This document shows positions 11,630 to 35,540 of a stretch of 40,255 nucleotides of DNA, piece by piece (the first letter of the stretch is position 1; every line of letters begins with the position of its first letter). The notes under the pieces are model-generated. The model did no database searches. It was not told the origin of the DNA and was given only the letters and a program-made list of their open reading frames with translations. Source of the DNA: Candidatus Hydrogenedentota bacterium (GTDB taxonomy: Bacteria; Hydrogenedentota; Hydrogenedentia; Hydrogenedentales; SLHB01); contig JAIBAQ010000035.1 in NCBI GenBank assembly GCA_019695095.1, forward strand, positions 1-40,255, written 5' to 3'. Made by a program: the position numbers and the translations under genes.

Positions 11630-11672
11630 CCGCTGTTGCGTCGGCGCTCAATCGCGCCGGTGCAAATTGCGG
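11630..11672. repeat. REP-like imperfect palindrome, copy 1
   Basis: A 43-nt imperfect palindrome with a perfect GGCGC/GCGCC core stem and outer arms ending in TGCAAATTGCGG. The stretch 11644-11676 matches 31168-31200 at 29 of 33 positions, so this is a dispersed repeat. It lies between cysE and ilvA, directly upstream of the antitoxin remnant. The rest of the 361-nt gap holds only the toxin-antitoxin debris. Confidence 0.65.
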
Positions 11673-11723
11673 ACTATCCTCGTCCGTCTTCATTGTAACG
11701 TATAGCGTCTTGACTTGCCCGCC

Positions 11724-17506: not shown

Positions 17507-19957
<2,451 letters not shown>

Positions 19958-20017
19958 CCGCGTTCATCGCAGGCAGTAGTAGGATCGCGAAGAGCCAAAG
20001 GGAAACCCGGGACCGAC

Positions 20018-22498
20018 ATGGAAACGCCAAGCGAACGTATCATTCCAATCGCAATCGAACAAGAGCTTAAGACCTCGTTTCTCGATTATTCGATGAGCGT
20101 GATCGTAAGCCGCGCGCTCCCCGACGTGCGTGACGGATTGAAACCCGTCCACCGGCGAATTCTCTATGCGATGCACGAACTTGGGCTGGTGAACAACAAG
20201 CCCTACCGCAAATCGGCGGCCATCGTTGGCGATGCCATGGGTAAATACCACCCTCATGGCGACCAGGCCATCTACGACACCCTCGTGCGCATGGCCCAAC
20301 CGTGGGCGATGCGTTATCCCCTGATTGACGGTCAGGGTAACTTTGGCTCCATCGACGGCGACAGTCCCGCGGCCATGCGATATACCGAAGCGCGCATGGC
20401 GGCCGTGACTGCCGAAATGTTGAAAGACATCGAAAAGGAAACCGTCGAGACCCAGGACAACTACGACAGCCGTTTGCAGGAGCCGATCGTACTGCCGTCG
20501 GCCATTCCGAATCTCTTGGTCAACGGCTCCTACGGAATTGCCGTGGGTATGGCGACGAGCGTTCCTCCGCATAATCTGACGGAAGTCTGCGACGCGGTCA
20601 TACACCTCATTGACAATCCGCAAGCGACTTCGCGCGATTTGATGCGATTTGTAAAAGCGCCGGACTTCCCGACAGGCGGCATCATCTACGGCACCGAAGG
20701 CCTTTCCGAAGCCTACGAGACCGGCCGCGGGCGGATTACGGTGCGCGCCAAGGTTGCGGTTGAACACGACGTCAGCAGCGGCAAGGATCGCTTGATCGTC
20801 AGCGAGATTCCTTACCAGGTCAATAAGTCGCGCGTCGTTGAAGCGATTGCCGCGCTCGTGCGCGAAAAGACTGTTGAAGGCATTACGGACCTGCGCGACG
20901 AATCCGACCGCGAAGGCATGCGCATCGTGATTGAGGTGCGCAAGGGCGACGAACCGCAGGTTATTCTCAACCAGCTTTACAAGCACACACAGCTTCAGGA
21001 TACGTACAGCATCATGATGCTGGCGTTGGTGCGCAACCAGCCTCGCGTGCTCTCCCTCGCGGAGATGATCTATCACTACGTGCGGCACCGCGCCGAAATC
21101 GTCAAGCGCCGCACGATGTACGATCTGCGCAAAGCCGAAGAGCGGGCGCACATCCTCGAAGGGCTGCTCAAAGCCATCGATCACATCGACGAGGTTATCG
21201 CGATCATCCGCGCCAGCGCCGACACGGAAGAGGCCCGCAACCGCTTGATGGAGCGATTCGGCTTTACCCATGTGCAGGCCAATGAAATCCTTGCGATGCG
21301 CCTGCGCCGCCTCACGGGCCTCGAACGCGAAGAATTGGAGAAGGAATATCAAGAACTCCTGAAAGAGATCGAACGTTTCAAGCAGATCTTGTCCAGCGAA
21401 CGTACGATCCTCGCCGAGGTTCGCAAAGAGATCCTTGAGGTGCGCGACAAGTACGGCGACGAGCGGCGCACGCAGATTCTTGGGGAGCGCTCCGAGTTCT
21501 CCGTCGAAGACCTCATCGCCGACGAAGACATGGTCGTGACCGTGTCGAACGAAGGCTACATCAAGCGCGTGCCGGTGAACGCCTACCGCAAGCAGCGCCG
21601 CGGCGGGCGTGGCGTCACGGGTATGGAGACGAAGGAAGAGGACTTCGTAAAAGACCTCTTCATCGCGTCGACGCATCAGTACATGCTGTTCTTCACGAAT
21701 CGCGGCAAGGTCTATTGGCGGAAAGTTCACGAATTGCCGAAGGCGAGCCGTACGGCGCGGGGCCGTGCGATTGTTAACGTGCTTGAGCTAACCGGCGACG
21801 AAGTCGTAACGGCATGTCTGCCCGTGCGCGACCTGAACGACGACGGCAAGTTCGTGTTCATGGTAACGAAAGACGGTACGGTCAAGAAGACGGAGTTGAA
21901 AGCGTTCAGCAATCCGCGCGCGACAGGTATCATCGCCATCGACCTCGATAAGGGCGACGAGCTTATTGAAGTCTCGATCACGTCCGGCAACGACAACATC
22001 CTGATTGCGACGTACTTGGGCATGGCCATCCGGTTCCCCGAATCCGACGTCCGTCCGATGGGGCGCAACGCGCGCGGCGTGATTGGCGTCCGTCTCGACA
22101 AGGGCGACCGGGTCATTGGCGTATCCATTGCCCATGAAGAGCAGACCGTGCTGAGTGTGACCGAGAACGGATTCGGAAAGCGCACGCAGGTCGGCGAGTA
22201 CCGCCTGCAGCATCGCGGCGGTCAGGGAATCATCAACATCAAGACCACGGCCCGCAACGGGAACGTCGTCGCCATGATGACAGTCGATGACAATGACGAG
22301 ATCGTGGTGGTCAGCACGGACGGGATCGTAATACGGACCACGGTGAAGGACATTCGCACCATCGGCCGCAACACCCAGGGCGTGAAAGTCATGACCCCGA
22401 ACGAGGGCGCCAAGATTAGCGCCGTGGGCCGTGCCGTGACCGAAGACGACGGCGATGATACCGGCTCGGCGGTTGAAGACGGGGATACCGGGGAGTAA
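20018..22498 (+). CDS. gyrA: DNA gyrase subunit A
   Basis: 826 residues. The catalytic tyrosine is Y122 in AMRYTEARM, numbering exactly as in E. coli. The quinolone-determining region reads [13 protein letters not shown], so residue 83 is Gln rather than the common Ser, with D87 kept. The GyrA box QRRGGRG, which distinguishes gyrase from topoisomerase IV, opens the C-terminal beta-pinwheel (about 525-530), and a strongly acidic tail ([18 protein letters not shown]) closes the protein, as in E. coli where it tunes wrapping. It partners GyrB, the preceding gene. It converges with the sensor kinase with only 6 nt between stops and no terminator visible. Confidence 0.98.
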
Positions 22499-28354: not shown

Positions 28355-30592
28355 TTACGACTCCATCTCGCCCAGCGCTTTCAAGAAAGCATCCACCGTT
28401 GTTGCGGGTTGCCGGCACGCAAAGTCGCGACATACGTACGCTGCCGGCAACGTATCCACCAGCGATTTCGACTGCAGAAGCGGCAGATACTCTTGAATGC
28501 GTGAAGCGTCAGCCGAATCCGGATTGAGTAACGCGATCACTTTATTCGGTGCAAATGTACCGTGCAAGGCCTTTAGAAAGGCTTGCACCGGAGCGCTGTC
28601 CGGTGCGCCAACGAAGGCAATTTCCTTAGTGGGGGACAGGTGGAAATCCGCGACACACAGCATCTTCAAGAACCCACGCGAGGCGTTCTTCATGTTCACG
28701 TGGTTTGCCCGCAAAACCGCCTCGCCCTTCTCATAATACGTCTTGTTGTCGAGTAGTTTCGCCAAGCGCAACAAGGCCAAGGCAGCCATGGAATTCCCCG
28801 AAGGTTCCGCGCCGTCGTACGTGGGCTTAGTACGCAGCAGAACATCGCGGTGATCCTCCGTGGTGAAGAAGAACCCGCCACCGTTGGCATCCCAGAAACG
28901 ATCCAGCATCGTTCTTGCGAACCGATCCGCGGCTTCCAGCCATCGAATGTCGAACGTAGCCTCATACAGATCGATCAACGCGACCGCCATGAAAGCGTAG
29001 TCATCGAGATAGCCGGGCAGTCGGCTTTCACCATGACGGTGTGTACGCAGTAATGCGCCATCCTGCATCATGCGCGTCAAGACAAAGTCCGCCGCGCGTT
29101 CCCCCGCATCGCGATACCGCGTGTCTCCCAGCACTTGGTAACCCTGAGCCAATGCTGAGATCATCAGCCCATTCCACGAAGTCAGCACTTTATCGTCGAG
29201 ACCCGGCCGCACGCGCTTGGAGCGAATCTCCATCAGCTTAGCCGCGCCTCTCTCTAGCGAGGCATTCAACTCTTCCACGGACATGGATAGCGATTTGGCG
29301 ACCTCTTCGCGGGAACGCCTCACATGCAGGATGTTCATGCCCTCGTGATAGTGCTCATGCGAATCGAAATTGCCTTCGCGCCGGACGTTGTAGTACGCAC
29401 ACAAGACTTTGCCGTCATTCTCTCCCAACGCGCCGACAATTTCGTCCTGCGTCCAAATGTAGTACTTGCCTTCCTGGCCTTCGCTATCCGCGTCCTCGGT
29501 GGAATGAAACGCGCCAAGCGGGTCCTGCATCTCGCGCAGTTCGTAATCGAGCGTCTCGCGCGCAACGCGCGCAAACAGCGGGTCCTTCGTGACCTGGTAG
29601 GCCTCAAGATAGACCTGAACCAATTGGGCATTGTCGTAGAGCATCTTCTCGAAATGGGGCACGAGCCAATGTGCATCCACGGAATAGCGATGAAAGCCGC
29701 CACCCAAATGGTCATACATGCCGCCTTCGCACATCTTCTTTAACGTTATGGTTGCCATTTCCAGGAGATGGGGCTCTTTCGTGCGCGCATATTGGCGAAG
29801 CAGAAGCGCAATCGCCGGACTCGACGGAAACTTCGGCGCGTCGCCAAACCCTCCGTCGCGCGGATCGAATGTCTGCCCCAACTCACGCGTGGCCTGCGCG
29901 ATAAGATCGCGATCCACCGCAGCCGGTTCACCGGTGCGCATCGTAACGCTCTGCTTCACATACTGCGTCAGTTGGTCCGCGCTGCGGGTGACTTCAGGAC
30001 GGCGGGAGTCCCATGCCTCGGCGATGGACTTCAAGACGGTCATGAATCCTGGCCGCCCATACGCATCGCGTGGCGGATAGTACGTGCCGCCATAGAATGG
30101 CTTCAGGTCGGGCGTCAAGAAAACGGTCATCGGCCAGCCACCTCCGCCCGTCATGATCTGCACGGCCATCATGTAGATTTCGTCCAGGTCCGGCCGTTCT
30201 TCACGATCGACCTTGATACTGATGAAGTGCTGGTTGAGGTACTCCGCGATGGCCTCATTCTCGAACGATTCCCGTTCCATCACATGGCACCAATGACACG
30301 CCGAATACCCGATGGACAGAAAGATCGGTTTGTCCTCCTCGCGGGCCCGCTTCAGCGCTTCCTCGCCCCACGGATACCAATCAACCGGATTGTGCGCGTG
30401 TTGCAGCAGATAGGGGCTTGTTTCATGTTCCAACCGGTTGGTGTGCCGGGGCTTTGTCGTTTGGGAATCCACTGCCGCACTTCCTTCCTTTGTATATCCA
30501 CTGGTAGTCTGCGCATCGTCGGCCGTCACGACCGTGAGAAACAGCAGGCAGACGAGACTGCTCACAATCGCTAATTGGATTCGTGCGCCCAT
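28355..30592 (-). CDS. Exported thioredoxin-domain protein, SPATA20/YyaL (DUF255) family
   Basis: About 745 residues. The N-terminal DUF255 thioredoxin-like domain has [17 protein letters not shown] and [13 protein letters not shown], with the CHWC redox pair near residue 103, then [10 protein letters not shown] and [11 protein letters not shown]. The rest is a long helical (alpha/alpha)6 toroid as in N-acylglucosamine-epimerase-like folds ([25 protein letters not shown]). A hydrophobic N-terminal segment ([19 protein letters not shown]) indicates export or anchoring. ATG 30592 is chosen; a TTG at 30604 with GAGG 7 nt upstream and an ATG at 30625 are alternatives. It is 7 nt upstream of dsbD in the same operon, suggesting DsbD keeps its CxxC reduced. 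The biochemical role of the family is unsettled. Confidence 0.92.
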
Positions 30593-30676
30593 GATGTACG
30601 CCAAATCACATCCTCTGTGAAGCACGTTCTCTGTCGTAACAGCCCGCGAGACACCGGAATTCCGGAGAGTGGGGCT

Positions 30677-30713
30677 GGGGCCCGCGCCGGGGGGGGATTC
30701 CGACGCGAGCCCC
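30677..30713. repeat. GC-rich hairpin with G-run loop
   Basis: GGGGCCCGCGCCGG (30677-30690) pairs with CCGACGCGAGCCCC (30700-30713) with two mismatches. The loop begins with six Gs. It could be a transcript leader of the dsbD operon or a block to divergent transcription; there is no T-tract for termination. Confidence 0.45.
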
Positions 30714-31014
30714 TACTAAGCGGGGTTCAGGGGGGAGGGAAGTCCGATGAAACTGTGTATTCAAACCCTTACGGGAGGATGACTTCGCTTTGCGGTTCCG
30801 TATGCCTTCTATAACCTGCCGTCCCTCATGAATTCGTGAAAAGCAAGATTCCATGTCGATACGGTTTTTCTGGCGGAGGCGGTGAGTATGAGTCGCGTGT
30901 CTCCTCTATGATTTTGTCACCAAATCGGCAATCGTGTCGCCACACTTCTTGTTACGGTATGCTGCTAATGCTACGCTCTTCATGCCGGTTAAGTGACGGT
31001 TTAATTTCTAGTCC

Positions 31015-31123
31015 GGATTTCTCACGAACGCACAGGCGGCTATCGCATAGCAACTGTATTTGCGGAACTTGCAGCGAAAACAAAAGCAGTTCTCCACAAA
31101 CAGAGTGTGTTCGTGAGAAATCC
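31015..31123. repeat. 109-nt inverted-repeat element, predicted three-way junction
   Basis: The outer arms 31015-31033 and 31105-31123 are reverse complements at 18 of 19 positions. Inside are a perfect hairpin GCTAT-CGC-ATAGC (31039-31051) and a longer imperfect stem (31054-31069 with 31088-31103, 12 of 16). The arms are separated by only a few unpaired bases, giving a compact three-armed fold. It may be a MITE-like sequence or a structured RNA; no target-site duplication is visible. Confidence 0.6.
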
Positions 31124-31154
31124 TCATAGCGTAGACTCAAAGTCATGCACGTGA

Positions 31155-31194
31155 GCAATTTGCACCTGCGCTCAGTTGCGCCGCTGCAAATTGC
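31155..31194. repeat. REP-like palindrome, copy 2
   Basis: GCAATTTGCA (31155-31164) and TGCAAATTGC (31185-31194) are perfectly complementary, with a nested GCGC/GCGC stem in the 20-nt loop. The segment 31168-31200 matches 11644-11676 at 29 of 33 positions. It sits 50 nt before the GH2-like gene start. Confidence 0.7.
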
Positions 31195-31244
31195 GGGCTA
31201 ATGGGGGATTCAAACTTCGCCGCACGACGAGTTAGGAAACGCTC

Positions 31245-34200
31245 ATGCTTTCTTCGCTTCTGGCTCTAAGCCTCGTGCTGTGCTCGTCCGCAGAAACGCC
31301 CATCGACATTTCGCTGGACGGCGAGTGGGATTTCTACTGGTCCAAAGCCGTCAGTGACGAGATGCCTTCCTTGCCCGAAGGCAGCGCATTCTCATCGAAG
31401 GTCCTCGTTCCCGGTGCATGGGACGATCAATGGGACCGGATGCGTAATGCATCGTGGTGGGCGGACGCTACGTTCGAGACGGCGCTAGGTCCCGTGAAGT
31501 ACCTTTCGGGAGTCGGGTGGTACCGCAGAGAATTCCAGGCGCCGGAGGACTGGGAGGGTAGAAGCGTCGCGCTCACCGTAGGCGGCGGCGTGGGCCGCAT
31601 GCACATCTGGCTCAACGGCGAGCTGGTGGGGCGCTACGACCACGGCGTGTACACACCGTGCGACTTCGAGGTGAGCGCTCAACTCCGCGGCGGCGTGAAC
31701 CTGCTGACGATCGCGCTCGACAATACAAAAAGCTTCACTGGCGGTTGGGCTTTTCTGGGTAACGCAGGGCGCGCATCGGGTCTTTCGGGATCGGTGACTC
31801 TTCACGTGGCGGCGGGCAACGGGCGGATCGCCGACGTGTTTGTGCGTCCCGGCGACGACCTCACGCACCTGCTGTTTGATGCGACTCTCGCGGGCGACCG
31901 TGACGTATCCGGCTCGCGGCTTGAATGGCGCGTGACGACTCTCGATCACGGCGAGGTCCTCGCCGAGGCGGAATTGCCGATACCCCCTCATGACGAAGGG
32001 AAGGCGGTGCAGTGGGATGCGCGGGCGCCGTCGATTCTGCCGTGGAGTCCCGACGCACCGCACCTCTATGTCGCGGAGCTGATGTGGAAGGATGCGTATG
32101 GCCATTTGATCGATGCCAAGAGGCAGCGGTTCGGTGTGCGGCGTTGGTCCCACGATGGAAGGAAGCTCTTCCTCAACGGAAAGCCGATCTATCTGCGTGG
32201 TGAGTTCGGGGCATACTATTTCCCCGTCCACGGCGCCGCGCCGCACTCAAAGCCGTATTGGATTGAGCACATCACGCGCGCGAAATCGATCGGCATGAAC
32301 TACATCAACTTCGCCGCGCGGGTCTGCCCGCCCGAACTGATGGATGCCGCGGATGAACTCGGTATCATCCTGCAATGCGGCGACGATTCAACGGCCCTTA
32401 AAGAACACAACGACGCTTACGTCGAGGTGTGGGAACCGATTCTGAGATGGACCCGCGGCCATCCTTCGTTAGGCATCTATGGCTTTGGCGGAGAGCACGA
32501 CTACTACGAGGGCTGTATCGAGCAGTTTCAGCGTCAATACGATCTCATCAAACAAATGAACCCCGAAGCGCTCGTCATGCCGCAACAGGCTATCCGCGGT
32601 ATTGACTATGCCTTCGACGACGCCGACAAGCCGAGTCTGACTCCTGAACCGTTTCCCCACCATGCGGAACGTCTGGCGCAGTACACGAAAGCCTGCGACC
32701 TCTTCGGCCACTATTCCTCTGGAGCTTTCGGCTACTCCTATTTCGCAGGACCCTGGCGCGATATGGAGACCAGGTTCCGGATCTACGAGAAGCCCCTGAT
32801 CATGCACGAACTGTTCATGGGCATGTCGTATCTGAACCCCGATAACGCGGCAAAGTACACCGGAAGAATCCCTCCGTATCTTTACGATCAGGTCAAGTCC
32901 GACCTTGAAGCCGCCGGCCTGCTCGAACGATGGCCAGTCTATTGGCGGAACAGCGCTCTCCTCCAGGCCGCCTGCATCAAGTACTGCATCGAGAAGACGC
33001 GCAAATGCAACGAACTCGCGGGATTCGAGTTTCTCGGCATGACCGACATGCACTTTTGCGAGCACTATACCGTGGGCATGATGGACGAGTTCGGCGTCCT
33101 GAAACCCGGCTCCACGGTCGAGGGTATGCTTCGCTACAACGCCGACAACGTGCTGCTCATCGACTATGACGCGCATTCCATTTCCCGCGACTATCGCGCG
33201 GGCGCCGCCTTCGCGCCAGAATGCCTCGTTTCACTGTACGGCGACCGGCCCCTCACAAATGGGAGAGTCGTATGGCGGCTCACGGACGGCGGCCGCGTGC
33301 TCGCCAGCGGCGAGATTCCGGTGAATGACGCCCCCTTCGGTCAGGTGACGTCGCTCGGCCGCCTCTCCTTCGAGTGGCCGCAGGTATCGGAGACGACTCG
33401 CTGCAACCTTGCGCTCGAGTTGCGGGGAGCGGAACTGTTGGTGAAGAACGATTGGGACTTCTGGGTGTTTCCGAACAGAAGCGCGCTCCAAGTCAAAGCG
33501 GAAGTCGATGGAGCCTTGCGCGGCCTGTTGGACCCCTGCTACGCGTTTGAGCCGGGCAGCCTGCGCATCGTGCGAGAACTCAACGAAAACACAGTCGAGT
33601 TCCTGAAGCGTGGAGGCAGCGTCCTCTTGCTCGGAACGATACCGTTTCCGACGCACAAGGGTTGGACTTCTTTCAGGCCGGGCACTGGTGCGCGCGACCA
33701 ACACAATGTGGGAACAGTCATTGCCGATCATCCGGTATTCAAATACCTTCCGCACGAGGGATGGGGCGATTGGCAATTCTATCCGGTAATCGAAGGAGCC
33801 GCACCGATTCTCGTCACCGATCTCGACACGGCATTCGATCCGATCCTCGAAGTTATCAGCACGGCTGAGGTCGTCCGGAAACAGGCGCTCGTCTTCGAGA
33901 AGCGGGTCGGCGCCGGGCGGCTTCTGGTATCGAACTGCGCGTTCAAGCCGGACAGTCCCGCGTGTGTTGCCCTCATGGACGGAATTCTGGAGTACGTAGC
34001 CGGACCCGGCTTTGACCCACCGACTGAGCTATCGCCCGAAATGCTGGACCGGTTGCTGCGCCCCGCAATGGCTCCGGATGGCGCAGCCAATCTTCCGGGC
34101 GGCAAACCGGGGCAGAAGGAAGAGGCCCCGCAGGCGGACTCCTGGTCGCGCGAGCGCACGGCAGTCACGTTTGACGGCGCAGGCTGGTTGCGTGTCAACG

Positions 34201-35540
34201 GCGGGAAGTGGTTCGAGGGCGACTCGGCAACGGTGAGCGAGCAAGGCGTGTTCGTCGTAGAGTTCAAGAAGACCGAGCGCGCTGAACCTGTCAGCAAACG
34301 GATCGGGGTGGATTGGACTCCACCGGTCATCACGCTGAACGCCGAGCCGCGCCTCGATCAGGAGGGCGGCGTCTACTACGCGCGTCCGAACACGGCGCTA
34401 ACGTTGATCGCGCGCGACAATCTCTCTGGCGTCAAGAAGCTCGAATATGCCGTGGACAATGAGACCCTTGTACCGTGCAATGGTCCGATACACCTCACTA
34501 TCGGAAACCACACATTGCGTTGCCGCGCGGAAGACGCCGCGGGCAATTCAGGAGATACATTGACTGGCGATCAACTCACCGGCGGGGACACGAAAGCAAT
34601 CCAAATCGTCGTGCGAGACGAGAAGGCGCCGCAGGAAGTACTTGTGACAAGCACCCAAGACGGCATGCAGCAGCCGTGTCTGATAGACGTACCCGAGGCG
34701 GTTGCCGGCAACCGTGTGCCGCTGCTCGTAAGCCTGCATAGTTGGTCTACCGGCCGCCGCGCCTACGATGCCTATGAAGCCGCGCTCGCAGGATGCCGCG
34801 AACGGGGCTGGATCTTCTTATCGCCGGAGTTCCGGGGACCCAATAACCATCCCGAAGCTTGCGGGTCGCCCCTGGCGGTGCAGGATGTGCTCGACGCCGT
34901 TGATTGGGCACTCTCCAATACACCCGCGGATCCGCGCCGTGTGTATCTGCTTGGCGGTTCGGGCGGCGGACACATGGCCTTGCTAATGGCGTGTCGCGCA
35001 CCGAAGCGTTGGGCCGCCGTGTCAGCGTGGGTGCCCATCACCGATTTGACCGCATGGCATGCGTTCTGCCGCAAGGAGGGTTATCGCTACGCTGACGATA
35101 TGGAGAAGTGCTTCGGCGGGCCGCCGGAAACGCCGGAACGGATCGAGGCCTACAATAGCCGGTCGCCGGTTTTCGAACTTGAACGAGCCGCCGGTCTTCC
35201 TATCGATTTGCAGACAGGAATACACGACGGTCATGACGGAAGCGCTGTGCCCATTGACCATACGCTTCGCGCATTCAATCGGCTTGCGGAAGCGAACGGT
35301 GTGCCTGACGCCGCGTTGACCGAAGAGACTGTGAACTTCATGACTTCGCGAGCGGAAGTACCCGATGGCTTGGCATTCAAAGGCACGGCCGAGTCTGGCC
35401 GTGCGCAACCGATCTTGTTTCGCCGGGAGGCTGGGCCTGTGCGGCTAACGCTTTTTGATGGTGGCCACGTGATTGACCCGGCAACGGCCCTCTCGTGGCT
35501 CGCGACTTTTAAGCAATCCGCTGCCGAGACTACGCCGTAG
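31245..35540 (+). CDS. Secreted GH2-like glycosidase fused to an alpha/beta-hydrolase esterase
   Basis: 1431 residues. A signal peptide covers 1-17 (LLALSLVLCSSA). The GH2 N-terminal sugar-binding fold is about 22-195 (DISLDGEWDFYW, GVGWYRREFQAPEDW), an Ig-like domain about 200-300, and a TIM barrel about 303-645 (FLNGKPIYLRGEFGAY). The acid/base candidate is E417 in GFGGEHD and the nucleophile candidate E522 in IMHELFMG. Further beta domains lead to an OmpL47-like Ig module (about 1022-1124, DNLSGVKKLEYAVD). A serine hydrolase follows (about 1130-1425), with nucleophile S1239 in LLGGSGGGHMAL, HDGHDGSAVPIDH and a C-terminal DGGHVID histidine. The architecture suggests one polypeptide that removes an ester and cleaves a glycosidic bond on the same polymer. 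AGGA 7 nt upstream supports the start. Confidence 0.82.
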   Translation: MLSSLLALSLVLCSSAETPIDISLDGEWDFYWSKAVSDEMPSLPEGSAFSSKVLVPGAWDDQWDRMRNASWWADATFETALGPVKYLSGVGWYRREFQAPEDWEGRSVALTVGGGVGRMHIWLNGELVGRYDHGVYTPCDFEVSAQLRGGVNLLTIALDNTKSFTGGWAFLGNAGRASGLSGSVTLHVAAGNGRIADVFVRPGDDLTHLLFDATLAGDRDVSGSRLEWRVTTLDHGEVLAEAELPIPPHDEGKAVQWDARAPSILPWSPDAPHLYVAELMWKDAYGHLIDAKRQRFGVRRWSHDGRKLFLNGKPIYLRGEFGAYYFPVHGAAPHSKPYWIEHITRAKSIGMNYINFAARVCPPELMDAADELGIILQCGDDSTALKEHNDAYVEVWEPILRWTRGHPSLGIYGFGGEHDYYEGCIEQFQRQYDLIKQMNPEALVMPQQAIRGIDYAFDDADKPSLTPEPFPHHAERLAQYTKACDLFGHYSSGAFGYSYFAGPWRDMETRFRIYEKPLIMHELFMGMSYLNPDNAAKYTGRIPPYLYDQVKSDLEAAGLLERWPVYWRNSALLQAACIKYCIEKTRKCNELAGFEFLGMTDMHFCEHYTVGMMDEFGVLKPGSTVEGMLRYNADNVLLIDYDAHSISRDYRAGAAFAPECLVSLYGDRPLTNGRVVWRLTDGGRVLASGEIPVNDAPFGQVTSLGRLSFEWPQVSETTRCNLALELRGAELLVKNDWDFWVFPNRSALQVKAEVDGALRGLLDPCYAFEPGSLRIVRELNENTVEFLKRGGSVLLLGTIPFPTHKGWTSFRPGTGARDQHNVGTVIADHPVFKYLPHEGWGDWQFYPVIEGAAPILVTDLDTAFDPILEVISTAEVVRKQALVFEKRVGAGRLLVSNCAFKPDSPACVALMDGILEYVAGPGFDPPTELSPEMLDRLLRPAMAPDGAANLPGGKPGQKEEAPQADSWSRERTAVTFDGAGWLRVNGGKWFEGDSATVSEQGVFVVEFKKTERAEPVSKRIGVDWTPPVITLNAEPRLDQEGGVYYARPNTALTLIARDNLSGVKKLEYAVDNETLVPCNGPIHLTIGNHTLRCRAEDAAGNSGDTLTGDQLTGGDTKAIQIVVRDEKAPQEVLVTSTQDGMQQPCLIDVPEAVAGNRVPLLVSLHSWSTGRRAYDAYEAALAGCRERGWIFLSPEFRGPNNHPEACGSPLAVQDVLDAVDWALSNTPADPRRVYLLGGSGGGHMALLMACRAPKRWAAVSAWVPITDLTAWHAFCRKEGYRYADDMEKCFGGPPETPERIEAYNSRSPVFELERAAGLPIDLQTGIHDGHDGSAVPIDHTLRAFNRLAEANGVPDAALTEETVNFMTSRAEVPDGLAFKGTAESGRAQPILFRREAGPVRLTLFDGGHVIDPATALSWLATFKQSAAETTP

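Follow-up and report, generated by a model that had tools for sequence, protein, structure and literature searches.

A high-copy 186-bp repeat in Candidatus Hydrogenedentota, probably an IS1380-type MITE, with stems that covary between genera and frequent placement at stop codons

The analysed window is a stretch of 40,255 nucleotides from a Candidatus Hydrogenedentota bacterium (contig JAIBAQ010000035.1), in which gyrB and gyrA lie side by side at 17528-22498. The strongly folding stretch of 109 nt (31015-31123) that was followed up here lies between two divergently transcribed genes. The one at 28355-30625, on the minus strand, encodes a DsbH-like protein with a thioredoxin domain, and the one at 31245-35540, on the plus strand, a protein with glycosyl hydrolase family 2 and prolyl oligopeptidase domains. 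No named relatives were found when the gene next to the folding stretch was scanned at the protein level.

The folding energy of 31005-31135 is -47.0 kcal/mol compared with -28.8 +/- 3.2 for dinucleotide shuffles (z = -5.7), and none of 200 shuffles equalled it. In the first-pass annotation the stretch was a compact three-way junction, and its separate parts were all recovered: the arms of the 19-bp closing stem, 31015-31033 (GGATTTCTCACGAACGCAC) and 31105-31123 (GTGTGTTCGTGAGAAATCC), match in 18 of 19 positions with a G-U pair in the odd one, the perfect 5-bp hairpin GCTAT-CGC-ATAGC is present at 31039-31051, and another imperfect stem lies inside the left hairpin. As a fold the 109-nt element holds, but as a unit it fails, since it makes up no more than the left arm of a repeat 186 bp long. 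The three-way junction is likewise no conserved unit: among the 100 best copies just 1 has the inner arms GCTAT..ATAGC, conservation is confined to the outer stem, and what lies within the left hairpin differs from copy to copy, with one to three loops. Scans for tRNAs and intrinsic terminators gave no match for the hairpin stretch, and an Rfam scan of the window at gathering score gave 0 matches. The promoter-like TTGTTA-17-TACGCT (30949-30977) stayed under the threshold of a consensus scan that found 0 sites in 30600-31300, where shuffles give 0.6. Since the promoter-like site does not rise above chance, Rfam gives no match and the inner junction is private to the window copy, the proposal of a small RNA with its own promoter was not borne out.

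Similarity among the aligned copies runs 74 bp past position 31123, through a small stem and then a strong second hairpin (GCAATTTGC...GCAAATTGC), so that the plan of the element comprises three hairpins, a large one on the left, a small one in the middle and one on the right, as shown in Table 1. The termini are imperfect inverted repeats, YCCGGATTTCTCAC on the left and YCCGCAATTTGCAC read inward from the right (there YCCGCA...), with the general form YCCG[GC]A[TA]TT..CAC at both ends. Both strands of the element fold nearly equally well, and its 186 bp are without coding capacity for a transposase. The copy between the two diverging genes is not at a stop codon. The other copy in the window, at 11639-11676, is truncated to its right hairpin and terminus (TGCGTCGGCGCTCAATCGCGCCGGTGCAAATTGCGGACTA), and no matching duplication lies to its left.

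Table 1. Features of the element in the window.
Feature	Position	Strand	Basis
Complete element, 186 bp	31012..31197	+	Extent common to dozens of copies in the window's genome, bounded by target duplications
Left target duplication CTAG	31008..31011	.	YTAN duplication across copies
Right target duplication CTAA, identical to the left one in 3 of 4 bases	31198..31201	.	YTAN duplication across copies
Left terminal repeat TCCGGATTTCTCAC	31012..31025	+	14 of 16 positions equal to the left end of one sister-genus IS1380 element
Right terminal repeat, CCCGCAATTTGCAG read inward	31184..31197	-	Match to IS1380 end 9 of 16, weaker than left
Left hairpin H1, the 109-nt stretch	31015..31123	+	Conserved part is the outer 19-bp stem only
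Middle stem H2, predicted	31124..31154	+	Minimum-free-energy folds, 5 of 6 representatives of three genera
Right hairpin H3, GCAATTTGCA..TGCAAATTGC	31155..31194	+	Folds and cross-genus covariation
Second copy in window, right end only	11639..11676	+	Right hairpin and right end

The genome of the window is a 95% complete MAG of 6.77 Mb in 405 contigs. A 121-bp query gave at least 40 full-length matches in it at 75-80% identity, with self-pairing arms set aside, and a covariance model (R1) built from 41 copies found at least 150 dispersed copies, the weakest among the matches listed having an E value of 7e-11. The pattern of the 19-nt arm with at most 3 mismatches matched 252 times, and the reversed control never. 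Identity to their consensus is 91-98% for the 40 best copies; the window copy, with 75-80% identity to the others, is an older or divergent member. Shortened lengths of 139, 174 and 180 bp recur among the copies, as if deletion forms had spread themselves. At one locus (L016) a diverged right-hairpin sequence (C114:4939-5015, 75% identical) lies directly beyond the right end of a complete copy (C114:5030-5219), as though a second insertion had taken place next to the first. Lone left arms on contigs C38, C83 and C17 were considered as ends of an autonomous element and rejected, being truncated or shortened copies. Right-end-only copies (window 11639-11676, L203, L206 and L208), inspected by eye, have no matching left duplication; an origin as reverse-transcriptive insertions was rejected for them, and they are read as putative deletion remnants.

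The left and right flanking 4 bp are identical in 51 of the 100 best copies, compared with a mean of 11.2 and a maximum of 21 in 2000 shuffles. The free fourth base of the duplication agrees in 77 of these copies where 28 are expected, and agreement of the bases immediately outside is at chance level. Insertion of the element therefore duplicated 4 bp, with the target consensus YTAN in the window's genome. In two other genera identical duplications were found in 22 of 30 copies, mostly of the form YTAR. The element is short, multicopy and dispersed, has no transposase gene, and carries terminal inverted repeats and a duplication of fixed length, as MITEs do.

No relatives were found by DNA search of 29 related genomes. 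With the R1 model, diverged relatives were found in two other genera of the same family, with 19 + 1 copies in two genomes of one genus and 27 + 8 + 2 copies in three genomes of the other, these per-genome counts being lower bounds. These relatives share the plan YTAN, [Y]CC, long left hairpin, short middle stem, long right hairpin, GG[R], YTAN. An R1 search with stricter filters of 43 genomes from other families of the order gave none, an absence that is soft. A degenerate pattern searched over GTDB genomes placed 17 of 19 stretches in Candidatus Hydrogenedentota MAGs; the other two, in Clostridia and Pararcticibacter (L254, L259), are taken as chance, since R1 finds no element there. Searches for plasmid and phage relatives of the element gave no match.

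Between the genera the left and right stems differ in sequence yet pair in 94.9% of cells (19 sequences). For the outer H1 and H3 stems of these 19 sequences, cells with double changes number 73, compared with 27.2 when shuffled and at most 11 with slid partners, and over the three genera the covariation score of the same stems is 0.365, compared with 0.163 for shuffled and at most 0.119 for slid pairings. The arms were located by complementarity, which somewhat favours pairing, but this bias is unlikely to explain the covariation, given the fixed terminal positions and the slid controls. The signal rests on three genus-level groups and hence on few independent events; within the window's genome the stems hardly vary (covariation term -0.09), and the cross-genus comparison alone is informative. 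The homologues thus show the compensatory changes of a conserved structure, in both outer stems, and these changes do not tell RNA from DNA. Together with the many genomic copies they dispose of the two outcomes, no compensatory changes and a single copy, that would have spoken against the first-pass annotation, and this result fits a transposon as well as a small RNA.

Two intact IS1380 transposases were found in genomes of the same family (NF033539, E 3e-118, 395 bits each), in elements of 1693 and 1685 bp. The first has the ends CCCGGATATCTCACGAAAG / CCCGCATCGCTCACC and the duplication TTAG, and the second the ends CCCGGATTTCCCATATGG / CCCGGGATTTCCCATATGG and the duplication TTAA. The left end of the first agrees with the MITE consensus in 15 of 16 positions, compared with 2-4 of 16 for an IS1182-like control, and its left and right ends correspond in order (GGAT versus GCAT). 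The right ends of the MITE match IS1380 in 9-13 of 16 positions depending on genus, the window's genus having 9 of 16. The type of duplication also agrees, being TTAG or TTAA at the two IS1380 elements and YTAR or YTAN at the MITE. Because of these similar ends and the TTAG and TTAA duplications in sister genera, the 186-bp element is best read as an IS1380-type MITE, very probably a non-autonomous DNA transposon of which the 109-nt stretch is the left arm. The MITE that had been offered as an alternative for the 109 nt has accordingly become the main reading, through the at least 150 copies, the terminal repeats, the 4-bp target duplications and the ends resembling IS1380 transposons.

The transposases of IS1380 elements belong to the DDE enzymes and are regarded as relatives of piggyBac, whose target is TTAA; the YTAN and YTAR duplications fit this. 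In piggyBac trees IS1380 serves as the outgroup (PMC10813416). Other findings speak against the IS1380 reading. IS1247, another member of IS1380, is listed with a duplication of 5 bp and not 4 (PMC3281130). A PF13701 (IS1380) search of the window's genome gave no match, although repeated elements of 1.7 kb can be missing from such a MAG. No MITE of the 186-bp family was found in the genomes with intact IS1380 (G014, G033), and the IS1380 gene in a MITE-bearing genome (G031) is partial only. An autonomous partner in the same genome is not required for derivation from IS1380. Of the transposase types sought, the window's genome has few: a search for IS701-type DDE_5 gave none, and as an insertion sequence with matching ends its sole DDE_Tnp_1 match (C133) was rejected, being IS1182-like with the unrelated ends GAGGCTGTCTCACAATT; this element (L218, C133:15600-16298) is apparently intact. 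Judged from its ends, the MITE would have been mobilised by an IS1380-family DDE transposase. Its gene would lie outside the assembled sequence or have since disappeared from the genome; the enzyme would bind the terminal repeats YCCG[GC]A... and move the 186 bp into a YTAN target, giving rise to the 4-bp duplication. Since compensatory changes between the genera have preserved the subterminal palindromes, the pairing of these probably plays a part in the spread of the element, as paired transposon-end DNA or as RNA.

On the opposite strand YTAN reads NTAR and hence contains TAA or TAG. In 25 of the best 60 copies, and in 33 of the best 100, the right-hand duplication coincides exactly with the in-frame stop of a frame that stays open for 150 codons or more; the two other frames, used as control, gave 1 of 60 and 0 of 60. 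With non-overlapping gene calls there are 29 such copies in 100. Stop codons account for 31 of the 245 non-genic YTA sites (12.7%) in the window and three loci, and the excess at the copies has p values of 1e-5 (29 of 100) and 2e-8 (25 of 60); the gene calls are crude, being longest open frames, and the rates of about 30-40% are approximate. Insertions within genes would be purged by selection, and those at a TAG or TAA stop would leave the gene intact and accumulate, and the direction of the enrichment would follow from this purging in combination with the YTA target. Orientation is also biased at the YTAR targets of the window's genome, with the gene on the right in 14 cases and on the left in 2, and this bias is not explained by purging and target. 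In the two other genera this orientation bias at stop codons is absent: of 30 copies, 5 have the gene on the right and 9 on the left. Among the 100 best copies of the window's genome, those between co-directional genes have both genes on the element's minus strand in 44 cases and on its plus strand in 12, a bias that purging and target likewise leave unexplained. The right-end-only fragments L203, L205, L207 and L209 still border directly on a stop codon, that of an open frame on the opposite strand.

The covariation of the outer H1 and H3 stems over three genera and the 44 against 12 co-directional contexts would also suit a structured RNA, whose fold would work as a free small RNA or at the 3' end of mRNAs, with the copies as its amplified carriers. 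This is distinctly unlikely, as there is neither a promoter or terminator above chance nor an Rfam match, the inner structure is not conserved, the near-equal folding of both strands fits palindromic DNA as well, and the stop-codon orientation bias is absent in the other genera. The exact abutment to stop codons, in about 30-40% of copies and 12.7% of non-genic YTA sites, could alternatively mark a domesticated 3'-end device of MITE origin, in which the copies at stop codons are kept for a right hairpin that protects or ends the upstream mRNA; the right-end-only fragments that still abut stop codons speak for it. Palindromes selected for such a role would make the mobile family a supplier of structured 3' ends, with the fold and not the sequence conserved between genera and the orientation chosen with respect to transcription in the window's genome. 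Both the device and this selection on it are considered unlikely, since purging and the YTA target yield the same direction of enrichment and no U tract follows the hairpin.

DDE transposases typically leave exact 4-bp duplications, and Y1 enzymes would not be expected to. The duplications at the element count against mobilisation of a REP/REPIN-like palindrome by a Y1 (RAYT) transposase of the window's genome, even though this genome has three Y1_Tnp matches, one of them an intact frame of 152 aa, and a diverged right-hairpin-like sequence lies in one Y1 locus (L242, about 2150-2240). Different repeats (CCTAGGGCG.., GCGCCCTTACAGGGCGC) flank the Y1 genes at the two loci read and the MITE ends match IS1380, which leaves Y1 mobilisation highly improbable. 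The Y1 genes of RAYT size at L242 (C43) and L243 (C22), one intact and one interrupted, are surrounded by palindromes that form a separate repeat system.

Read as an IS1380-type MITE, the element shares with the IS1380 family (NF033539 / PF13701) the ends YCCG[GC]AT..CTCAC and the 4-bp duplications TTAG and TTAA of two same-family copies; it differs in lacking a transposase gene, in measuring 186 bp and not about 1.7 kb, in its long subterminal palindromes and, in the window's genome, in accepting the looser target YTAN. It is well established that MITEs can be 100-200 bp long and have terminal repeats, duplications and stable stem-loops (PMC2229807). Correia/NEMIS, ERIC and RUP elements resemble it in their 100-200 bp, terminal repeats, duplications, high copy number, stable stem-loops and mostly intergenic location, and differ in having TA termini and, in most cases, TA-type duplications (PMC2229807), whereas the present element has 4-bp YTAN duplications, IS1380-like ends and two separate terminal hairpins with a middle stem. 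MITEPye1 of Paracoccus yeei is likewise non-autonomous, with an IS family assigned from its ends and a predicted long stem-loop, but has 1-3 copies per chromosome and IS1182-type ends (PMC11578231), compared with at least 150 copies and IS1380-type ends here. The CIR elements of Caulobacter and Brucella also have two long inverted-repeat arms with a linker and are conserved between genera; they carry a GANTC motif and their mode of mobility is uncertain (PMC2229807), while the 186-bp element has clear target duplications and IS1380-like ends.

A literature search among open-access papers gave no description of an IS1380-derived MITE or of this 186-bp repeat, which would make it an undescribed high-copy MITE family in Candidatus Hydrogenedentota. 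Two of its traits are unusual, namely the stems kept by compensatory change across genera and the frequent exact placement at stop codons. The hairpins of MITEs are usually noted in one genome; here the outer stems keep pairing through double changes in three genera, so that the need of transposon ends for the palindrome as such can be put to the test. Insertion at stop codons illustrates how a short target motif lets an element pile up in a gene-dense genome while the genes remain unbroken.
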